A DNA stretch of 64,000 nucleotides from Opitutia bacterium (GTDB lineage Bacteria; Verrucomicrobiota; Verrucomicrobiia; Opitutales; Seribacteraceae), in the NCBI GenBank assembly GCA_002716045.1, contig PAZC01000060.1:1-64000 (forward strand), written 5' to 3'. Below, in pieces: positions 6,946 through 31,494 of this stretch. Under the pieces are notes generated by a model. The model was given only the letters and a program-made list of their open reading frames with translations. It ran no database searches and was not told the DNA's origin. The position numbers were made by a program, and so were the translations under genes. Each line of letters starts with the position of its first letter. Within the stretch, counting starts at the first letter, position 1.

Positions 6946-7266
6946 TCAGGATTCTCTATCGGATGCTTTCGGTGATTGCTGCTTCTTATCCTTCAGGTTG
7001 CGCATGAGTTGCTGAGCCGACGATGCCAAGGCAGTCTTTGGCAAACTAGGCATTGCAGTTTGGCCAGTCGTGGCAGGTGCTGCCATGGAAACAGCCTCCT
7101 TGTTGAAAGCGTGCATTTCGTCTATGATCTCCTTGCGCAAAATGGAAATTTCGCGAGGAGCGGAAATACCGATCTTAACGGAATCTCCCTCGATCTTGGT
7201 GACCGAGATCTCAATGTCACTGCCGATGGTGATCGACTGATTTTTCTTTCGGGATAAAATCAGCAT
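6946..7266 (-). CDS. csrA: CsrA translational regulator with C-terminal extension
   Basis: An RNA-binding global regulator that represses translation by binding GGA motifs near start codons; with FliW it controls flagellin synthesis in many bacteria. The core [33 protein letters not shown] fills residues 1-55. The protein is 106 residues against roughly 60-75 usual. The extra part is an Ala/Gln/Lys-rich, probably disordered tail. It is last in the flagellar locus, and its ATG overlaps the fliW TGA by 7 bases. The tail is the odd feature; function is otherwise secure. Confidence 0.95.
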
Positions 7267-7754
7267 GCGGTCGATTCCGATTCCGTCGTTTCATCCGGAG
7301 CCCCCACGTTAATCACATGGCGGGCGGAATACTGCTCGTGGTTGTTGATGATGCATTGCTTGCCCTCACGAGTGTTCCTGTTGATCACGATAGGACCGAC
7401 CAAATTGACGGAGATTGTCCCGGGTTGCTCGGGGTTGAGCGTGACGATGTTTAGTATCATCGTGTCATCGGCACCGGTAATACCTAGCGACTCGACGTCG
7501 GCGTCAGAAATCTCAACCAAGTAATTTGGCACTATCCCCGTAGGTTCGATCACGACAAAGGCCAGGCCTTCTTTATTGCTTTCTCGAAGCCACATGAACG
7601 GCAGTTCTTCCTGCGCGAATACTATCTCCATAGAACGAGCGTCCGGAAAACCAAAAAGCCCGGAATTCAAGATAACCTCATTCTGAATCTCTGGAGACGT
7701 GTCCTCTGGATTCAGGGACTCCGGAAAAGAGTCCTGATGTGTATCGACTTTCAC
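7260..7754 (-). CDS. fliW: flagellar assembly factor FliW
   Basis: A 164-residue protein that antagonises CsrA and binds flagellin, releasing flagellin translation when secretion is active. The FliW core starts near residue 27 ([20 protein letters not shown]). It continues through LPFMWLRE, the acidic [14 protein letters not shown] and [20 protein letters not shown]. About 25 acidic N-terminal residues precede the core. It overlaps csrA by 7 bases and follows flgL by 48 bases. Flagellin itself is not in the window. Confidence 0.93.
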
Positions 7755-7802: not shown

Positions 7803-10595
7803 TTAAAGGAAGTTGAGGAGCGATGTGTTCATCATGTGGGCACCAACTTGTATGGCGGCTTGATAAGCAGTGGTTGCCCGTGTCATTCGAACGATGGCCT
7901 CGGAAAGGTCGACGTCGATGTCCTTGGCAATCCGCTGATCCAAGCCCATGAAGTATTCCTCGTCATGCTTTTGGACAGTTTCCATTCGAGCCATTTTTGC
8001 CGCTACTTCCCCCATTTTATCGACAACCTTGTCTTCCAGAGCAATCAGCTTCTGATTCGCAGCTTCTACTTCCGTCGCATAAGTGGAGGGCTTTGCATTC
8101 CTGAGAGCGTCTCGCAAGCTAATCATGGAGTCAACCACGTCACCCAAGTCCTTTGTGCCACCATTACTGGCTTCCAGATAATAAGATATCTTACTTCCCT
8201 TACCTATGTAAGTCTCGGCATTTTTTTCGTTGCCGTTGTAGGTGACGTCTATGACCTCACCTTTGGAATTTCTATGCGAGAGGAAGGTCTCGGAACCCGT
8301 GGCAAAAGAAAAGGTGTCTTGCAGTCTTGGTGAAGTCGGAAGGTTCATGTCGGCTGCCTCGGCAGGCATTTTGAAACCGAAAACTTTGCCATTGTCACCT
8401 ATCACGTCGACTGTGATCTCTACGCCTTCAGAGGTGCGAACCACAGCGCTCTGCGGCATTTCGTCCTCATAGGTGTAGCTGCCGGCCTTCGTTAAGCGCA
8501 AGCCCACCAGGCGACCACTGGCGTCAACGACAGCTTCGGCCTCGGCTCCTTCTCCTCCTCGAGTGGGCGGGGCAATGATCACCTCGGGCCAATCCGAGCG
8601 ATCCGCCCGGAATTTAGCGACGTGTCCGAAAGATTCACCAATCGGCAACCATGCGTCGTTTTGAACAAGATCTCCATTGGAGTTGTGGATGTATTCATCA
8701 TCCGGGTAGACCAGATAATTATCCACCAAGTCAAGGGGATCAAAAGCCAAATTCTTGAAGTTGTCCTGTAAGCATTGCCAGTAGCGATTCTTGTGGTAAA
8801 CAATGTCACCAGTGTTGTAAGTGCGCCCCTGATTCCAGTCTAAGCCCTGAGGGCTCTCGTAAATCGAGACCTCTTCAAGCTTGGAGGCATTTGTGGGATT
8901 GCTGGGATCAAAGGCGGCAACATCGCCATCCGTGGTGAAGTCCGAAAGAACGAAATAAAATTTATTTGCTGAAAGATCGTGGAGATATTCTCCCTTTATC
9001 AGGCTTTGGTTTTTGGTGGAATCAAGAACCGTATTAAAGCCCGATCTGGGCAAAACTTTCCCCAAGTTCAAGAAATCTGCAGTTGATTCAGCGGGGCTTG
9101 AGGGCAATCCAGATAGATCAGCTTCTTTAGGTACTGATTGGAGAGCTTTGTAGTATTGGCCATCATATACAAATATGTCATTCTGCTGATACGCACTGTT
9201 GGTCAATCCTCCAGTCCCTGGCTCTCTAAGTAGATTGCCAGTTATTTTGCTACCTCCCACATTTTCACCATTGGCCGAAGCGGTCAAAGTGTACTCCAAT
9301 GTACGGGGATCGAAACTAACGCGGGCGGCAGCGCTTTCAGAGCCAATCGCTTCAAACTGAGCCACACTCATCGTAACTTGACTTATTCCGGTATACATCG
9401 AGTCCAGCGTAGCTTGTGGTGTTTCGACGTCGGCGCTTTGATTAAGAACGGAGATGACATGATTTTGGGCATCCGTCAGGTCTTCGAAAAGCCAACCATC
9501 TGGCGTGAGATTGTAGGCCTTATACTCATGCGACGAAACATTCAGGTTCCAATCTTCTCGCAGAACGTCGTAGGTCGAATCGACCTCTTTCCACGCTTTT
9601 GCTAGATTAGTATCAGGGAAGCGGTTGAAGTTCTCGTCTGTCTGAGACTCCCAGATCTTGTCGTTGTAATAGACGAGTTCGCCTCTGTTGTATGAAGTGA
9701 GGCGTTGCCAGTCGGCTGGATGCGTGAGCGCGATATTGGTAGCTTCAGAAACTTTACTCGATGTTACTGAGAGGCTTCTGGTCCAACGACTCCCCTGTCG
9801 TCTCGTATCATTCGGGAATTCATATTCAGGGTCAGCGTCCGTTTCATATTCTGCGGTAAATTCGAAGTCTTCGTCAACTGCGCCATAAAGAAGAAGGTTA
9901 TTCTGGACATCCAATTTGGCCTGAATGCCAGTCTTGCGATTATCAGCATTTATTTTGTCTCGCAAAAATGCCGCAACAGCAGAAGCACTTTGAGCTACAT
10001 CACCAGTTTTATCATTAATGACAGTAGCAGTATCGATGACGTAAGGTCCCTGCCCCGCGACTTGAAAAGTAAATTTGTCGCCTACTTTAAGATTTTCGGG
10101 AATATAATTATCTGCCAACGACAATTTCTTTTCAAACCTTTGTCCTTGAATTACGTCTGTTGATCCAAACTTAGGAGTAGTGTATGTACCTCCAAACAGG
10201 GCTTTCTTTCGGTGTGTGGCATTAATCCGATTGAGGGCTTCCTCCAAGAGTTGGTTCATCTCCTGGGCATTTGTTTCCATCGCGACGTAGTTCAATCCAG
10301 AGCCTGAAGTACGGGCAAGCTCTTGAGATCGGACACCCAGCTCTCGGAGTTTATCGAGATTAAGGTGTGAGGCGTTTAGATATTCCGTGGCGTATGAAGC
10401 ATTGCGCTGATACTGGACGAGGCTATTTTTTTCCGTCTCCATTCGAACGAGACGCCCCATCTTCATCCCATCGTCCTCGGGCAAAGTAATCGATTGCCCG
10501 TCTGAAATTTGCTTCTGGAGATTTAGCTGGCGCTGATCCAGCTTCTTGATCACGTCGAGAAGATTCTCGGAAGTCGTGACATTTGGTACTCTCAT
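7803..10595 (-). CDS. flgL: hook-filament junction protein FlgL, with large insert
   Basis: Flagellar hook-associated protein 3, which joins hook to filament outside the cell. The N terminus (residues 1-140: MRVPNVTTSENLLDVIKKL, then the D1 helices) and C terminus (about 810-930, ending in ATTAYQAAIQVGAHMMNTSLLNFL) are the D0/D1 coiled-coil pair shared with flagellin. At 930 residues it is two to three times normal. The extra central part, about residues 145-800, has four aromatic repeats at 301-318, 469-486, 532-552 and 592-609. These resemble carbohydrate-binding CBM5/12 units and are shared with FlgK. It follows flgK by 26 bases. Confidence 0.88.
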   Translation of the reverse strand: MRVPNVTTSENLLDVIKKLDQRQLNLQKQISDGQSITLPEDDGMKMGRLVRMETEKNSLVQYQRNASYATEYLNASHLNLDKLRELGVRSQELARTSGSGLNYVAMETNAQEMNQLLEEALNRINATHRKKALFGGTYTTPKFGSTDVIQGQRFEKKLSLADNYIPENLKVGDKFTFQVAGQGPYVIDTATVINDKTGDVAQSASAVAAFLRDKINADNRKTGIQAKLDVQNNLLLYGAVDEDFEFTAEYETDADPEYEFPNDTRRQGSRWTRSLSVTSSKVSEATNIALTHPADWQRLTSYNRGELVYYNDKIWESQTDENFNRFPDTNLAKAWKEVDSTYDVLREDWNLNVSSHEYKAYNLTPDGWLFEDLTDAQNHVISVLNQSADVETPQATLDSMYTGISQVTMSVAQFEAIGSESAAARVSFDPRTLEYTLTASANGENVGGSKITGNLLREPGTGGLTNSAYQQNDIFVYDGQYYKALQSVPKEADLSGLPSSPAESTADFLNLGKVLPRSGFNTVLDSTKNQSLIKGEYLHDLSANKFYFVLSDFTTDGDVAAFDPSNPTNASKLEEVSIYESPQGLDWNQGRTYNTGDIVYHKNRYWQCLQDNFKNLAFDPLDLVDNYLVYPDDEYIHNSNGDLVQNDAWLPIGESFGHVAKFRADRSDWPEVIIAPPTRGGEGAEAEAVVDASGRLVGLRLTKAGSYTYEDEMPQSAVVRTSEGVEITVDVIGDNGKVFGFKMPAEAADMNLPTSPRLQDTFSFATGSETFLSHRNSKGEVIDVTYNGNEKNAETYIGKGSKISYYLEASNGGTKDLGDVVDSMISLRDALRNAKPSTYATEVEAANQKLIALEDKVVDKMGEVAAKMARMETVQKHDEEYFMGLDQRIAKDIDVDLSEAIVRMTRATTAYQAAIQVGAHMMNTSLLNFL
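8766..9701 (-). repeat. four CBM5/12-like repeats inside flgL
   Basis: Encoded residues 299-610 contain four copies of a loose motif, Y-x-x-G-[DE]-[ILV]-V-x4-5-[YW]-[YW]-x-[AC]. They are YNRGELVYYNDKIWES, YQQNDIFVYDGQYYKAL, IKGEYLHD...KFYFVL and YNTGDIVYHKNRYWQCL. The pattern matches the aromatic core of chitin-binding type 3 modules. Residues 468-578 also align end to end with FlgK residues 510-625. The assignment to a carbohydrate-binding fold is inference from the motif. Confidence 0.65.
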
Positions 10596-10621
10596 GATCG
10601 TTTATTCCTGAAATTCAACAA

Positions 10622-13600
10622 TTAACGAATCAAGCCCATGACGACTAACTCAAGCATGCTGTCCAATGTAGTCACAACCCTTGCCGAAGCCTGAAAAGCT
10701 TTTTGGTAGCGCATCAAGTTGGCCACTTCTTCATCTATGGAGACGGCGCTGATTGCCTGACGCTCATCTATCAGCAAACCTTCCACCATTTGTTGATGCT
10801 CCAAGTTGTCCACTACATCGCCCAAGGTGTTGCCGACATCCGTGACGAGCACAGAGAGTTGTTCGGTGAAATCCCCGTTGCCCAACTCGGCAATGCCGAG
10901 GGCAACGTCGTTGGCTTCAGGTTCGGATGAATTGCTGGCAACAAGATTATCTAGCGTAAAGCCATTATCGAGATTCAATGCCTTGGCCAAATTTCGATCA
11001 TCTTTGATTAAGGTATCAAATGTGAAATTGTCGCCAAAGATAAAGGTATTAGTACCTTGCTCCATGCGAAAGGGGATCTCGTCATAAGCAAGGATGTGGC
11101 TTCGTCCGTCATCTTTGGTGTTCGCCAAGCCATCTGCCCCGACATAATCCATGTCATTCTCGATGGTGACGTTTTTCATCCGTCGAGCCCCAACGTAAAT
11201 CTTGCTGAAGCTTGGATCTTCAACCAATAATTCACGATCCGTGTTTCGATCCTCAGGAAAAAATGCAGAGGCATTGACGATGGTGAATGTGTCTGTCTCG
11301 GAATATGGAATCGTTATGTCGACCTCATCTCGATATAGATTAAGGTTTCCATCGCCCTGTTGATCAGGATACAACTCGTTCTTTCCTTGAGTTGCGCGAG
11401 ATAGCATGCCGGGAAATCCGAATACATACTTGCCCGGTTCGTCTTCCGGATTGTAGATTTGATTGACCTTGGCCACGACGTCGCCGACCAAAGTGTTCAG
11501 CTTCTTCCTGAAGCTCTCCATCTCAACGTGGCGAGCTTGCTGATAACCATGAATTGAGCCCGAGGTGACGTCCAAAGCGACGTCATCGATGAAAATGCTG
11601 TCTACAAGCGAATAACCGGAGCCCGCATTGGTGATCTTGAATCCAACAATTTGACCTTCCTTCACTATGGCTTCTGCAGTTGCGACTGGGCTACTGGCGG
11701 TACTGCCGGAACCAGTGGCGTCACTTGGATAGACGTAACTGAGGTTGACTGCAGTGAATTTGTCGGCGTCAAATGCCTGACCAGTGCGAGAAGCGATAGT
11801 GCCATCCGCTAGCTTGAAAGCATTGACCTCTGCTAAGTTAGCGGAAGTATTTGGGGCGAATCCTCCCGAAGTGGTATTTCCTGAAGTGCTGAAATCAGCG
11901 AGAGCTTGGTAGTAACGATTGTTTTCTCCATCGAAAAGATAGTCGCCCTTGACGAAAGACTGATCCTGTGTGCGTGAAAGAATCTGCTCTTGGCCGAGAA
12001 TAGGCAGGTCCGCTCCCAGTGTGAGAAAAGCCGTGCCGCCAGCAGTGAGATCCTTTTCTCCGGCAGTGGCAGCAAGATTATCTAGGCTGGCTCCTTTGGC
12101 CAAGTCTAGAGTGGCTTGATAATAGATGCCATTGTAGGAAACAACATCCCCTGCTTGGTATGCTTGGGTTGCCACAGCTCCAGCTGCATTTGGATCAACG
12201 CCTGTTTCCGTGACAACTGGTCCGATGGAACCAATGGCTTGATAATACTTTCCGCCGTTTTCGACGAGATCGCCTACCTTGTATCCAGTGGTCCGAGTTT
12301 TGGCCAAGTCATAGCTGGCTACGCTCATCGCATCAGGTATGGCTGTTAGCTTAAGAAATTTCGTGGTGTCTGAAAGCTGTGCGCCAGTTTGAGCAGTCGC
12401 ATCCGCTTCCGTAACATCCCAGGGCAAAGTATCAACCAGGGCTTGATAATAGTTTTCTCCATCAACAACAACGTCACCAGCCTTGTAAGGTCTCAGCGTG
12501 ATATCTGCCGGGAAACCGTTTACTACGACATCAGTGGTGGAATCAGTCAGTCCATCGGTTGTTCGAGTATATTTGGTTGAGGAAGTTGTTAGGTTCTCGA
12601 CAAGACCAGAGGCAACAAATGCAGCTATCTTTTCTGCTACGGTTGCGGCGGCAGCGGCAGTAGTGGTTGCTGTAGTAGCGGTAGCGGAAGGATGCGTGAA
12701 GGTAAAATTAATTGCAGCGGCGGTGTCATCGTAACCACTTCCGCCATCGAGTATCTCCACTCCGGCCAACTTGCCTTCGGAGTCGATGACAGCTCGTATC
12801 TTGGCGGCAGTGGCACCATCCGCTGCCGGGGTGTTCATTGTGTAATTGAGCTTATCGTCAGCGGATAAGGTTTTGGCTCCGGTGGAATCAAGTAAAACAA
12901 TGGCAGCGCCATCCTTGCCCTTGACCGAAAGATTGATTAAGCCAGTCCCTTCTCCCGTGGCTGCGTCAACGTCGTCGGTTGCGGTGTAGTCTAAAATCTT
13001 GGAAAGATCCTCTAGAGCTTTTTGTCGAAGATCTCTCAGGTCTGTTGCCCGCCCCTTGCCCTGTAGTTCGAAACGACGAATATCCCGATTCAGGAGATGG
13101 ATTTTGGCCAACAAATCATTGGCTGTCTTGACTTCATTTGCAACCGTCTCGGTGAGGTCGTCCTCAAGCCCCTCGAAGCTCTCGCCCATTTCATTGATTC
13201 GGGCAACTAAAGCCTTGGCCTTGTGCATTAACTCCTGACGAACCGATTCCTCAGTTGGAGCAGCAGATAATTCCTGATAAGCATTGAAGAAGTCATTCAG
13301 GGCGCGGGTCAAGCTTCCGGGAGCAAGATCCGACTCATGCATGTCGTCAAGTCCGGCGTTAAGCGACTGGCGGTTTACTTTTTCACCTAAAATCAGTTGA
13401 AGCAAATCGAGGATTTCCTTACGAGCTTCCAGCGACCCGCCTCCGCCGACTTCTGCAATGACTCGTCGATCCAGTAAATCGCTCCTGAAGTGGTCGAGTC
13501 CATCCGCGCGCAAGCCACCAGTGGAAAGCGAGAAATCGTCAGCATACATGTAGGCTTCTTTGGCAAGAACCCTTTGGCGAGCGTAATTGGGATCATTTAC

Positions 13601-13690
13601 ATTGGATAGATTCTTCCCTGCAACATCCGCTGACTTCGCGTGATAACGCAAAGCCTGCGAGTTTTTGAGAATTTCTCCTATGAGTCCCAT
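10622..13690 (-). CDS. flgK: hook-filament junction protein FlgK, with large insert
   Basis: Flagellar hook-associated protein 1. The N terminus (residues 1-240) has MGLIGEILKNSQALRYH, the conserved NLSNVNDPNYARQR and the long D1 helices. The C terminus (about 955-1022) has DNLEHQQMVEGLLIDERQAI, SAVSIDEEVANLMRYQKAFQ and ASARVVTTLDSMLELVV, the family's closing signature. At 1022 residues it is about twice normal. Residues 240-710 are an insert with two GGSGY/AGSGY strands (near 316-320 and 689-693), an Ala/Thr run (333-355) and four CBM5/12-like repeats (402-418, 470-486, 511-527, 579-599). It lies between flgN and flgL. Confidence 0.9.
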   Translation of the reverse strand: MGLIGEILKNSQALRYHAKSADVAGKNLSNVNDPNYARQRVLAKEAYMYADDFSLSTGGLRADGLDHFRSDLLDRRVIAEVGGGGSLEARKEILDLLQLILGEKVNRQSLNAGLDDMHESDLAPGSLTRALNDFFNAYQELSAAPTEESVRQELMHKAKALVARINEMGESFEGLEDDLTETVANEVKTANDLLAKIHLLNRDIRRFELQGKGRATDLRDLRQKALEDLSKILDYTATDDVDAATGEGTGLINLSVKGKDGAAIVLLDSTGAKTLSADDKLNYTMNTPAADGATAAKIRAVIDSEGKLAGVEILDGGSGYDDTAAAINFTFTHPSATATTATTTAAAAATVAEKIAAFVASGLVENLTTSSTKYTRTTDGLTDSTTDVVVNGFPADITLRPYKAGDVVVDGENYYQALVDTLPWDVTEADATAQTGAQLSDTTKFLKLTAIPDAMSVASYDLAKTRTTGYKVGDLVENGGKYYQAIGSIGPVVTETGVDPNAAGAVATQAYQAGDVVSYNGIYYQATLDLAKGASLDNLAATAGEKDLTAGGTAFLTLGADLPILGQEQILSRTQDQSFVKGDYLFDGENNRYYQALADFSTSGNTTSGGFAPNTSANLAEVNAFKLADGTIASRTGQAFDADKFTAVNLSYVYPSDATGSGSTASSPVATAEAIVKEGQIVGFKITNAGSGYSLVDSIFIDDVALDVTSGSIHGYQQARHVEMESFRKKLNTLVGDVVAKVNQIYNPEDEPGKYVFGFPGMLSRATQGKNELYPDQQGDGNLNLYRDEVDITIPYSETDTFTIVNASAFFPEDRNTDRELLVEDPSFSKIYVGARRMKNVTIENDMDYVGADGLANTKDDGRSHILAYDEIPFRMEQGTNTFIFGDNFTFDTLIKDDRNLAKALNLDNGFTLDNLVASNSSEPEANDVALGIAELGNGDFTEQLSVLVTDVGNTLGDVVDNLEHQQMVEGLLIDERQAISAVSIDEEVANLMRYQKAFQASARVVTTLDSMLELVVMGLIR
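11891..12490 (-). repeat. four CBM5/12-like repeats inside flgK
   Basis: Encoded residues 401-600 hold YKAGDVVVDGENYYQAL, YKVGDLVENGGKYYQAI, YQAGDVVSYNGIYYQAT and VKGDYLFDGENNRYYQAL. They are separated by linkers of about 24-52 residues. The first three match each other and the chitin-binding type 3 aromatic motif closely. The fourth aligns best with the third repeat of FlgL, including the residues on either side. The fold assignment is inference. Confidence 0.7.
12641..12687 (-). repeat. low-complexity Ala/Thr-coding tract in flgK
   Basis: The plus strand shows iterated GCGGCAGCGGCAG / TAGTAGCGGTAGCGG triplets. They encode an Ala/Thr-rich run (FlgK residues about 335-350) that looks like a flexible linker just before the repeat region. 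Such triplet runs are prone to length change. Confidence 0.6.
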
Positions 13691-30642: not shown

Positions 30643-31494
30643 TCAACGTTTCAAGTTCACTGCTTCTTGCAAGATAGTATCGGAAACCGTAACTACCCGT
30701 GACCCTGCTTGAAAGGATCTTTGGTGGGTGATCATGGCTGCAAATTCATTGGTCAAGTCCACATTCGAGAGTTCCAGGGTATACTGTCGGACTTTTCCGA
30801 GGGGACCGGTGTCGGGTATAGTCCCGGCAGTCAGTCCGGCGATATTCGAACCGCCCGGACCATTAGAGTAAAGCCCATTGCCTTCCCTGATCAAGTTTTG
30901 AGATGCTGTGAAGTTCACTAACTTCAATTGCCCGATCTCTCTTCTGAGATCTTGAGTGCCATCGTTGATCAAAGCGAAAACCTTGCCTTTTTCATCTATT
31001 TGTCGAGCTAAGAGGGTTTCTCCTTCTGCTGCGGCAATTTTCAGATCTCCCTCTTGAGATTGCAGGCGATATTGATTTGAGTCACGGGTGACGATTGTGC
31101 CGTCAACCAAACTCTCAAAACTGCCAGCACGAGTATAGAAGGTTTCGGCGGTAGTTGGATTTACGACAACAAAGAAGCCTCCTCCATTGGGACGATTACC
31201 CCCATCGATCGCAAAATCGAGATCAAGCCCAGTAACATCGAAGGCTCCTTGCTTGAAGTTAGAGGCAACGGAAGAAATATCAGTTCCCGATCCATATTCA
31301 GCGACTTGATTGGAAGGATTTCCTCCAACCGGAGTTTGGGAACGTTGTTCGTACTGATAAAAATTGTCAGTAAAACGGGCACGAGCTCCTTTGTAACCGA
31401 CGGAGTTTACGTTAGAAATGTTATTACCAAGCAACTGCATGCCCTTAGTTATACTCTTCAGGGCAGAAACTCCGTTGTATAGTGAGGAAATCAT
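30643..31494 (-). CDS. flgE: hook protein FlgE (short form)
   Basis: 283 residues. N-terminal MISSLYNGVSALKSITKGMQ, LLGNNISNVNSVGYKGAR and C-terminal YTLELSNVDLTNEFAAMITH, QRSFQAGSRVVTVSDTILQE are the hook/rod signatures. Adjacent flgD (hook cap) favours FlgE over a rod protein. It is short, without the extra outer domains of 400-residue hooks; short hook proteins are known (B. subtilis FlgE is of similar size). Confidence 0.85.
   Translation of the reverse strand: MISSLYNGVSALKSITKGMQLLGNNISNVNSVGYKGARARFTDNFYQYEQRSQTPVGGNPSNQVAEYGSGTDISSVASNFKQGAFDVTGLDLDFAIDGGNRPNGGGFFVVVNPTTAETFYTRAGSFESLVDGTIVTRDSNQYRLQSQEGDLKIAAAEGETLLARQIDEKGKVFALINDGTQDLRREIGQLKLVNFTASQNLIREGNGLYSNGPGGSNIAGLTAGTIPDTGPLGKVRQYTLELSNVDLTNEFAAMITHQRSFQAGSRVVTVSDTILQEAVNLKR

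Follow-up and report, generated by a model that had tools for sequence, protein, structure and literature searches.

The two hook-filament junction proteins of an Opitutia bacterium, FlgK and FlgL, each carry a large insert in their centre, and both inserts are built from the same kind of repeated module. According to structure prediction the inserts adopt the small three-stranded 'ski-boot' beta fold of CBM5/12 modules. From the residues at the ligand site, however, these modules would not be expected to bind chitin in the canonical way. The proteins are encoded in the window, the whole 64,000-nucleotide stretch of DNA analysed here (contig PAZC01000060.1, positions 1 to 64,000). The genes flgK and flgL are adjacent within a flagellar cluster, flgL directly after flgK, and are followed by fliW and csrA. 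Positions are those of the window.

10622..13690, minus strand: flgK, 1022 aa; TIGR02492 at 176 bits, over the cut-off, with FlgK_D1 and Flg_bbr_C in Pfam
11525..12988, minus strand: FlgK insert, residues about 235-722; AlphaFold and Foldseek
7803..10595, minus strand: flgL, 930 aa; a 660-aa insert between normal ends
8196..10175, minus strand: FlgL insert, residues 141-800; AlphaFold and Foldseek
7260..7754, minus strand: fliW, flagellar assembly factor
6946..7266, minus strand: csrA
30643..31494, minus strand: FlgE/FlgG-type axial protein, probably the hook protein; not enlarged, at 283 aa

FlgK passed the TIGR02492 equivalog model with a score of 176.1 (cut-off 170.75). FlgL scored 115.9 with TIGR02550, just below the cut-off of 127.2; the insert breaks up the match and has probably lowered the score. 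The ends of both proteins are normal, as the preliminary description of this DNA had stated: the N-terminal D0/D1 region of FlgK covers residues 1-234 and its C-terminus residues 723-1022, and the FlgL ends (1-140 and 801-930) both align to the FlgL of about 300 aa found in sister families. In these sister-family proteins residues 1-140 are joined straight to the C-terminal part. As the two D1 halves are contiguous there, we concluded that the insert in the enlarged FlgL has a clean boundary. FlgK is 463-544 aa and FlgL about 300 aa in other Opitutales families, without an insert, so that the earlier estimate of a doubled size was right for FlgK and too low for FlgL, which is about three times the usual length. 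The position of the inserts corresponds to the surface-exposed D2 region (PMC12221982) and agrees with the outward orientation at the junction that had been suggested.

Eight CBM5/12-like repeats, four per insert, were delimited together with a second type of module ending in G-S-G-Y, present twice in FlgK and once in FlgL.

12686..12841, minus strand: FlgK 284-335, 'GSGY' module GK1; FlgL-derived profile GL, i-E 1e-4
12341..12511, minus strand: FlgK 394-450, CBM5/12-like repeat K1; motif and repeat profiles
12191..12304, minus strand: FlgK 463-500, CBM5/12-like repeat K2, C-terminal strand degenerate; motif and repeat profiles
12005..12178, minus strand: FlgK 505-562, CBM5/12-like repeat K3; strongest Pfam match at 507-526, counterpart of FlgL L2
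11795..11983, minus strand: FlgK 570-632, CBM5/12-like repeat K4; FlgL-derived profile L3, E=2.2e-10
11555..11701, minus strand: FlgK 664-712, 'GSGY' module GK2; GSGY profile
9570..9722, minus strand: FlgL 292-342, repeat L1; fullest CBM5/12 module, with both its core Tyr and its terminal Trp
9051..9212, minus strand: FlgL 462-515, repeat L2; aligned with FlgK K3
8856..9026, minus strand: FlgL 524-580, repeat L3; counterpart of K4
8631..8849, minus strand: FlgL 583-655, repeat L4; strongest Pfam match at 587-611
8391..8594, minus strand: FlgL 668-735, 'GSGY' module GL; GSGY profile

The preliminary description had reported four copies of an aromatic motif in each insert, and repeats were indeed found at those residues. 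The strict form of the motif occurs in all four FlgK copies (402, 470, 511, 579) and, among the four of FlgL, in those at 469 and 593. The other two FlgL copies are looser: the copy at 301 has I-W in place of the two aromatics and the copy at 532 lacks the first Tyr. Shuffled proteins contained the strict motif 0.002 times on average, and none of 1000 shuffles reached the count of FlgK or, likewise, that of FlgL; chance similarity of the repeats was thereby ruled out. Pfam CBM_5_12 matched FlgL with 38.6 bits (E=1.1e-9, three stretches, cut-off 26.2) and FlgK with 27.4 bits, near the same threshold. In several repeats the Pfam match covered the front half of the module only. FlgK 504-630 and FlgL 462-584 shared 36% identity (E=4e-17), and the L4 profile matched the Vibrio cholerae deacetylase DA1 (E=4.7e-6) and the chitinase A1 chitin-binding domain 1ed7 (E=2.1e-4). 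Both the kinship of the two inserts and their resemblance to CBM5/12 were thus borne out. When the full proteins were compared with the PDB by phmmer, FlgK relatives and merely a weak match of a repeat to All3316 were obtained. A tandem-repeat search in the DNA of flgK and flgL found none, from which we concluded that the repeats are old. The search for CBM14 gave no signal in any control genome.

The inserts were modelled with AlphaFold using the family alignments. The FlgL insert reached a mean pLDDT of 79.7 and a pTM of 0.78; the FlgK model was weaker (mean pLDDT 67.4, pTM 0.42), with values of 80-89 over most repeats. The CBM5/12 fold was predicted for both inserts. In Foldseek searches against the PDB the first matches of both inserts were CBM5/12-bearing chitin oligosaccharide deacetylases of Vibrio, with a probability of about 1; the best E-values (3.2e-3 for the FlgL insert, 5.5e-4 for the FlgK insert) are modest values for whole models, and Foldseek also weighs sequence. 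These were followed by matches to chitinase B of Serratia, to All3316, a contractile-injection protein of Anabaena, and to baseplate and tail-fibre proteins of Agrobacterium phages. Many phage proteins annotated as chitin-binding in BFVD also match the insert fold. The phage structures that the flagellar insert fold matched in Foldseek include the tail fibres of 7-7-1, a flagellum-binding phage of Agrobacterium, and the phage Milano baseplate (9rkv, 8fqc).

Relatives with the enlarged proteins (28 FlgK and 24 FlgL) came from marine Opitutales metagenome and single-cell-type genomes, 'single-cell' being read from the record names. The inserts, whose absence in close relatives would have pointed to a sequencing artefact, were present family-wide, with FlgK of 1020-1724 aa and FlgL of 930-1500 aa. 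A profile of the FlgL insert matched in 29 of 273 sampled Opitutales genomes, all within this family, and the restriction to the family holds within the sampled Verrucomicrobiota. Pfam CBM_5_12 was matched in 22/24 of the family FlgL and, at E<0.01, in just 4/28 of the FlgK; across the two proteins, the K3 profile matched 22/24 FlgL and the L4 profile 27/28 FlgK. Between two species of the genus synonymous sites were saturated and pN was 0.09-0.36. We therefore concluded that the inserts are under purifying selection. L2-L3 is the fastest-evolving region of the insert, with 49% identity within the genus. Three of the 28 FlgK matched the biotin/lipoyl-type domain PF13533 (best E=2.9e-7; alignments A1/A3, e.g. 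L086, L094, L085), in a stretch that likely lies within the insert.

The preliminary description had confined the modules to FlgK and FlgL, where they do occur, and this proved too narrow, since FliD and a flagellin share them. FliD is enlarged to 1231 aa in this genome and up to 1951 aa in relatives. The FliD of relative G013 matched CBM_5_12 with 26.7 bits, above the cut-off of 26.2, and the repeat profiles matched FliD in four relatives. The FliD of this genome gave no match with the FlgK/FlgL repeat profiles; it has four tandem repeats of about 36 aa that look similar, at residues 430-620, and in every one of them a Trp follows the anchor Ala at a distance of four residues. The long flagellin adjoining fliD was matched by the K4 profile (E=2.3e-8). 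The repeat profiles gave no match in the probable hook protein.

Other flagellins varied widely. Flagellin-N matches, FlgL included, numbered 10 in this genome (G000) and 27 in G024, with lengths from about 300 to more than 2000 aa, and relatives had flagellin-N open frames of 1838-2307 aa. A flagellin of 1170 aa in a sister species (L129:12591-16100, plus strand) has about ten GSGY modules in its middle. In a 2065-aa flagellin of the same genome as the window (contig C15, L125:7291-13485, plus strand) Flagellin_N and Flagellin_C flank a PQQ/BamB-type beta-propeller at residues about 1057-1373.

CBM5 modules bind their ligand through two exposed aromatics, Y-W or W-W, that come right after YxAK, and the first-strand Tyr and the final Trp are part of the core (PMC8449059). 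In the family alignments (24-28 members) most core positions were conserved, but the positions of the exposed pair were aromatic in 0-4% of the repeats, and the pair was absent from all eight. The position of ChiA1 Trp687 (CBM12; +10 after the anchor) was placed in the repeats by way of the full ChiA1 sequence and its numbering. An aromatic residue stood there in 0% of the L1 copies and in 8% of the L4 copies; Phe618 of L4 in the window stands at this place and is not kept beyond the genus. L1 alone has the full set of core aromatics (the YxxG Tyr and the terminal Trp), and the other repeats have it in part; in K1, K3 and L2 the final Trp has given way to a Phe-containing strand (F-x-[LI]). 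The aromatics noticed at first, which had been taken for a glycan-binding surface, correspond instead to the Tyr of the core and to residues of the second strand. With the CBM5 pair lost and the CBM12 Trp position not conserved in L1 and L4, the two fullest repeats, we concluded that these aromatics are structural and that canonical chitin binding is not to be predicted. Glycan binding by another, non-canonical site is possible. In L1 the residues W296, R298, L299, N322, N324, P327 and W335 are invariant in the family, and the invariant polar or charged residues are R298, N322, N324, R346, E347 and D348; such residues could make up an alternative binding site or a subunit interface.

FlgK and FlgL each form a layer of 11 subunits with D2 exposed (PMC12221982), and flagellin-homologous proteins of Vibrio bind exopolysaccharide (PMC6692518). 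We tentatively propose that arrays of CBM5/12-fold and GSGY modules occupy the outward-facing D2 region of FlgK and FlgL. With four CBM5/12-fold modules in each of 11 FlgK and 11 FlgL, a thick collar with about 88 of them would surround the junction. This collar and the enlarged cap would touch polysaccharide-rich surfaces (marine particles, mucilage, extracellular matrix) weakly and multivalently, through a binding site unlike the canonical one for chitin. We rate such polysaccharide contact as the likeliest reading, if somewhat short of an even chance. The inserts, their homology, the predicted fold and the family-wide conservation enter this proposal as direct results, and the outward position and the copy number are taken from published flagellar structures. 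The presence of the same modules in FlgK, FlgL, FliD and a flagellin supports it, as do the invariant polar residues of L1. Against it count the lost ligand aromatics, the half-module Pfam matches and the fast evolution of L2-L3, and also that modules of this fold are common in phage tails and baseplates, some of them perhaps structural. A wider version, in which the whole exterior of the flagellum (FlgK/FlgL, FliD and some flagellins) would have been rebuilt from a shared pool of lectin folds into a polysaccharide-gripping organelle as well as a propeller, appears doubtful to us.

Only slightly less likely is that the modules are purely structural, small beta spacers or bracing without any ligand that thicken the junction and the cap and tune stiffness or the fit of the hook to a multi-flagellin filament. 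The loss of the canonical ligand aromatics from all eight repeats while core residues remain fits this well. The same is true of the intermixed non-CBM modules (GSGY and, in 3/28 FlgK, the lipoyl-like domain), of the many flagellins of very unequal size per genome, and of the CBM5/12-fold domains in phage baseplates and a contractile injection system. However, the invariant R298, N322, N324, R346, E347 and D348 of L1 are not obviously required by the fold, although a subunit interface could explain them, and the uptake of one lectin-like fold by three or more axial proteins suggests selection for some property of the surface.

Binding of the modules to the glycans of the cell's own flagellins, by which junction and cap would be locked to a glycosylated filament, is improbable; the outward orientation of the modules speaks against it. 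A point in its favour is an MptE-like protein of the same genome with a weak Maf glycosyltransferase match (L080:9364-11175, minus strand), which adjoins fliD and the long flagellin; from its sequence this neighbour suggests that flagellins may be glycosylated. Even less likely is that the modules bind chitin in the canonical manner and so hold cells to the chitin of crustaceans or diatoms. The fold is like that of chitin-active enzymes and this genome encodes a GH18 protein, but the chitin-contact aromatics are absent and only 3/5 of the family genomes tested have GH18. An assembly artefact or chimaeric genes, conceivable for a draft genome with 6% contamination, were ruled out by the same architecture in 28 independent genomes, some apparently single-cell, and by strong purifying selection.

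FlgK, FlgL and FliD generally count as invariable components of the assembly, and the functional insertions known so far are in flagellin. Here a whole family has junction and cap proteins of two to three times the usual size through one shared module type. The modules resemble CBM5/CBM12 (PF02839) of chitinases and deacetylases (ChiA1 1ed7, SmChiB 1e15, Vibrio COD 3wx7/4ny2) in the YxxGDxVxYxGxYYxA half, the predicted three-stranded fold and as top Foldseek matches. They differ in sitting in flagellar axial proteins, in lacking the exposed ligand aromatics and in a C-terminal half that is often degenerate or lengthened. Flagellinolysin, the proteolytic flagellin, likewise has a foreign functional domain in the exposed centre of an axial protein (PMC5595980), but there it is an enzyme in flagellin, whereas here non-enzymatic lectin-fold arrays are found in FlgK, FlgL and FliD. 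Extra mass in the exposed D2 is shared with the bulky FlgL D2 of Campylobacter (PMC12221982) and with the enlarged Campylobacter FlgK (PMC5691160). The long FlgL models of NCBIfam (749 and 827 aa) also have extra D2 mass. We know of no CBM5/12 module in the enlarged Campylobacter FlgK/FlgL or in the NCBIfam long FlgL.

Vibrio FlaE/FlaF are flagellin-type polysaccharide binders too, but they are secreted and not assembled, and for the Opitutales proteins such contact is what we infer. The FlaE/FlaF paper names no known carbohydrate-binding domain and urges study of a novel binding mode (PMC6692518). Phage proteins of this fold (Agrobacterium phages Milano and 7-7-1, many in BFVD) also repeat the modules in an extracellular fibre or baseplate, but are viral and not flagellar axial proteins. 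A search of open-access papers turned up no account of CBM modules in FlgK, FlgL or FliD, nor of CBM or chitin-binding domains in flagellin. Should the modules bind glycans, the flagellum itself could serve these ocean bacteria in recognising particles; if they bind none, a carbohydrate-binding fold would have been reused as a building block.

Two further proteins of the same genome contain related stretches. A 389-aa protein (L079:7744-8910, plus strand) has an N-terminal CBM_5_12 above the cut-off and no other Pfam match. A 4125-aa surface protein (L078:7217-19591, plus strand) combines a reprolysin-type peptidase with C-type lectin, laminin-G and Ig-like domains, and also has two weak CBM5/12 stretches.
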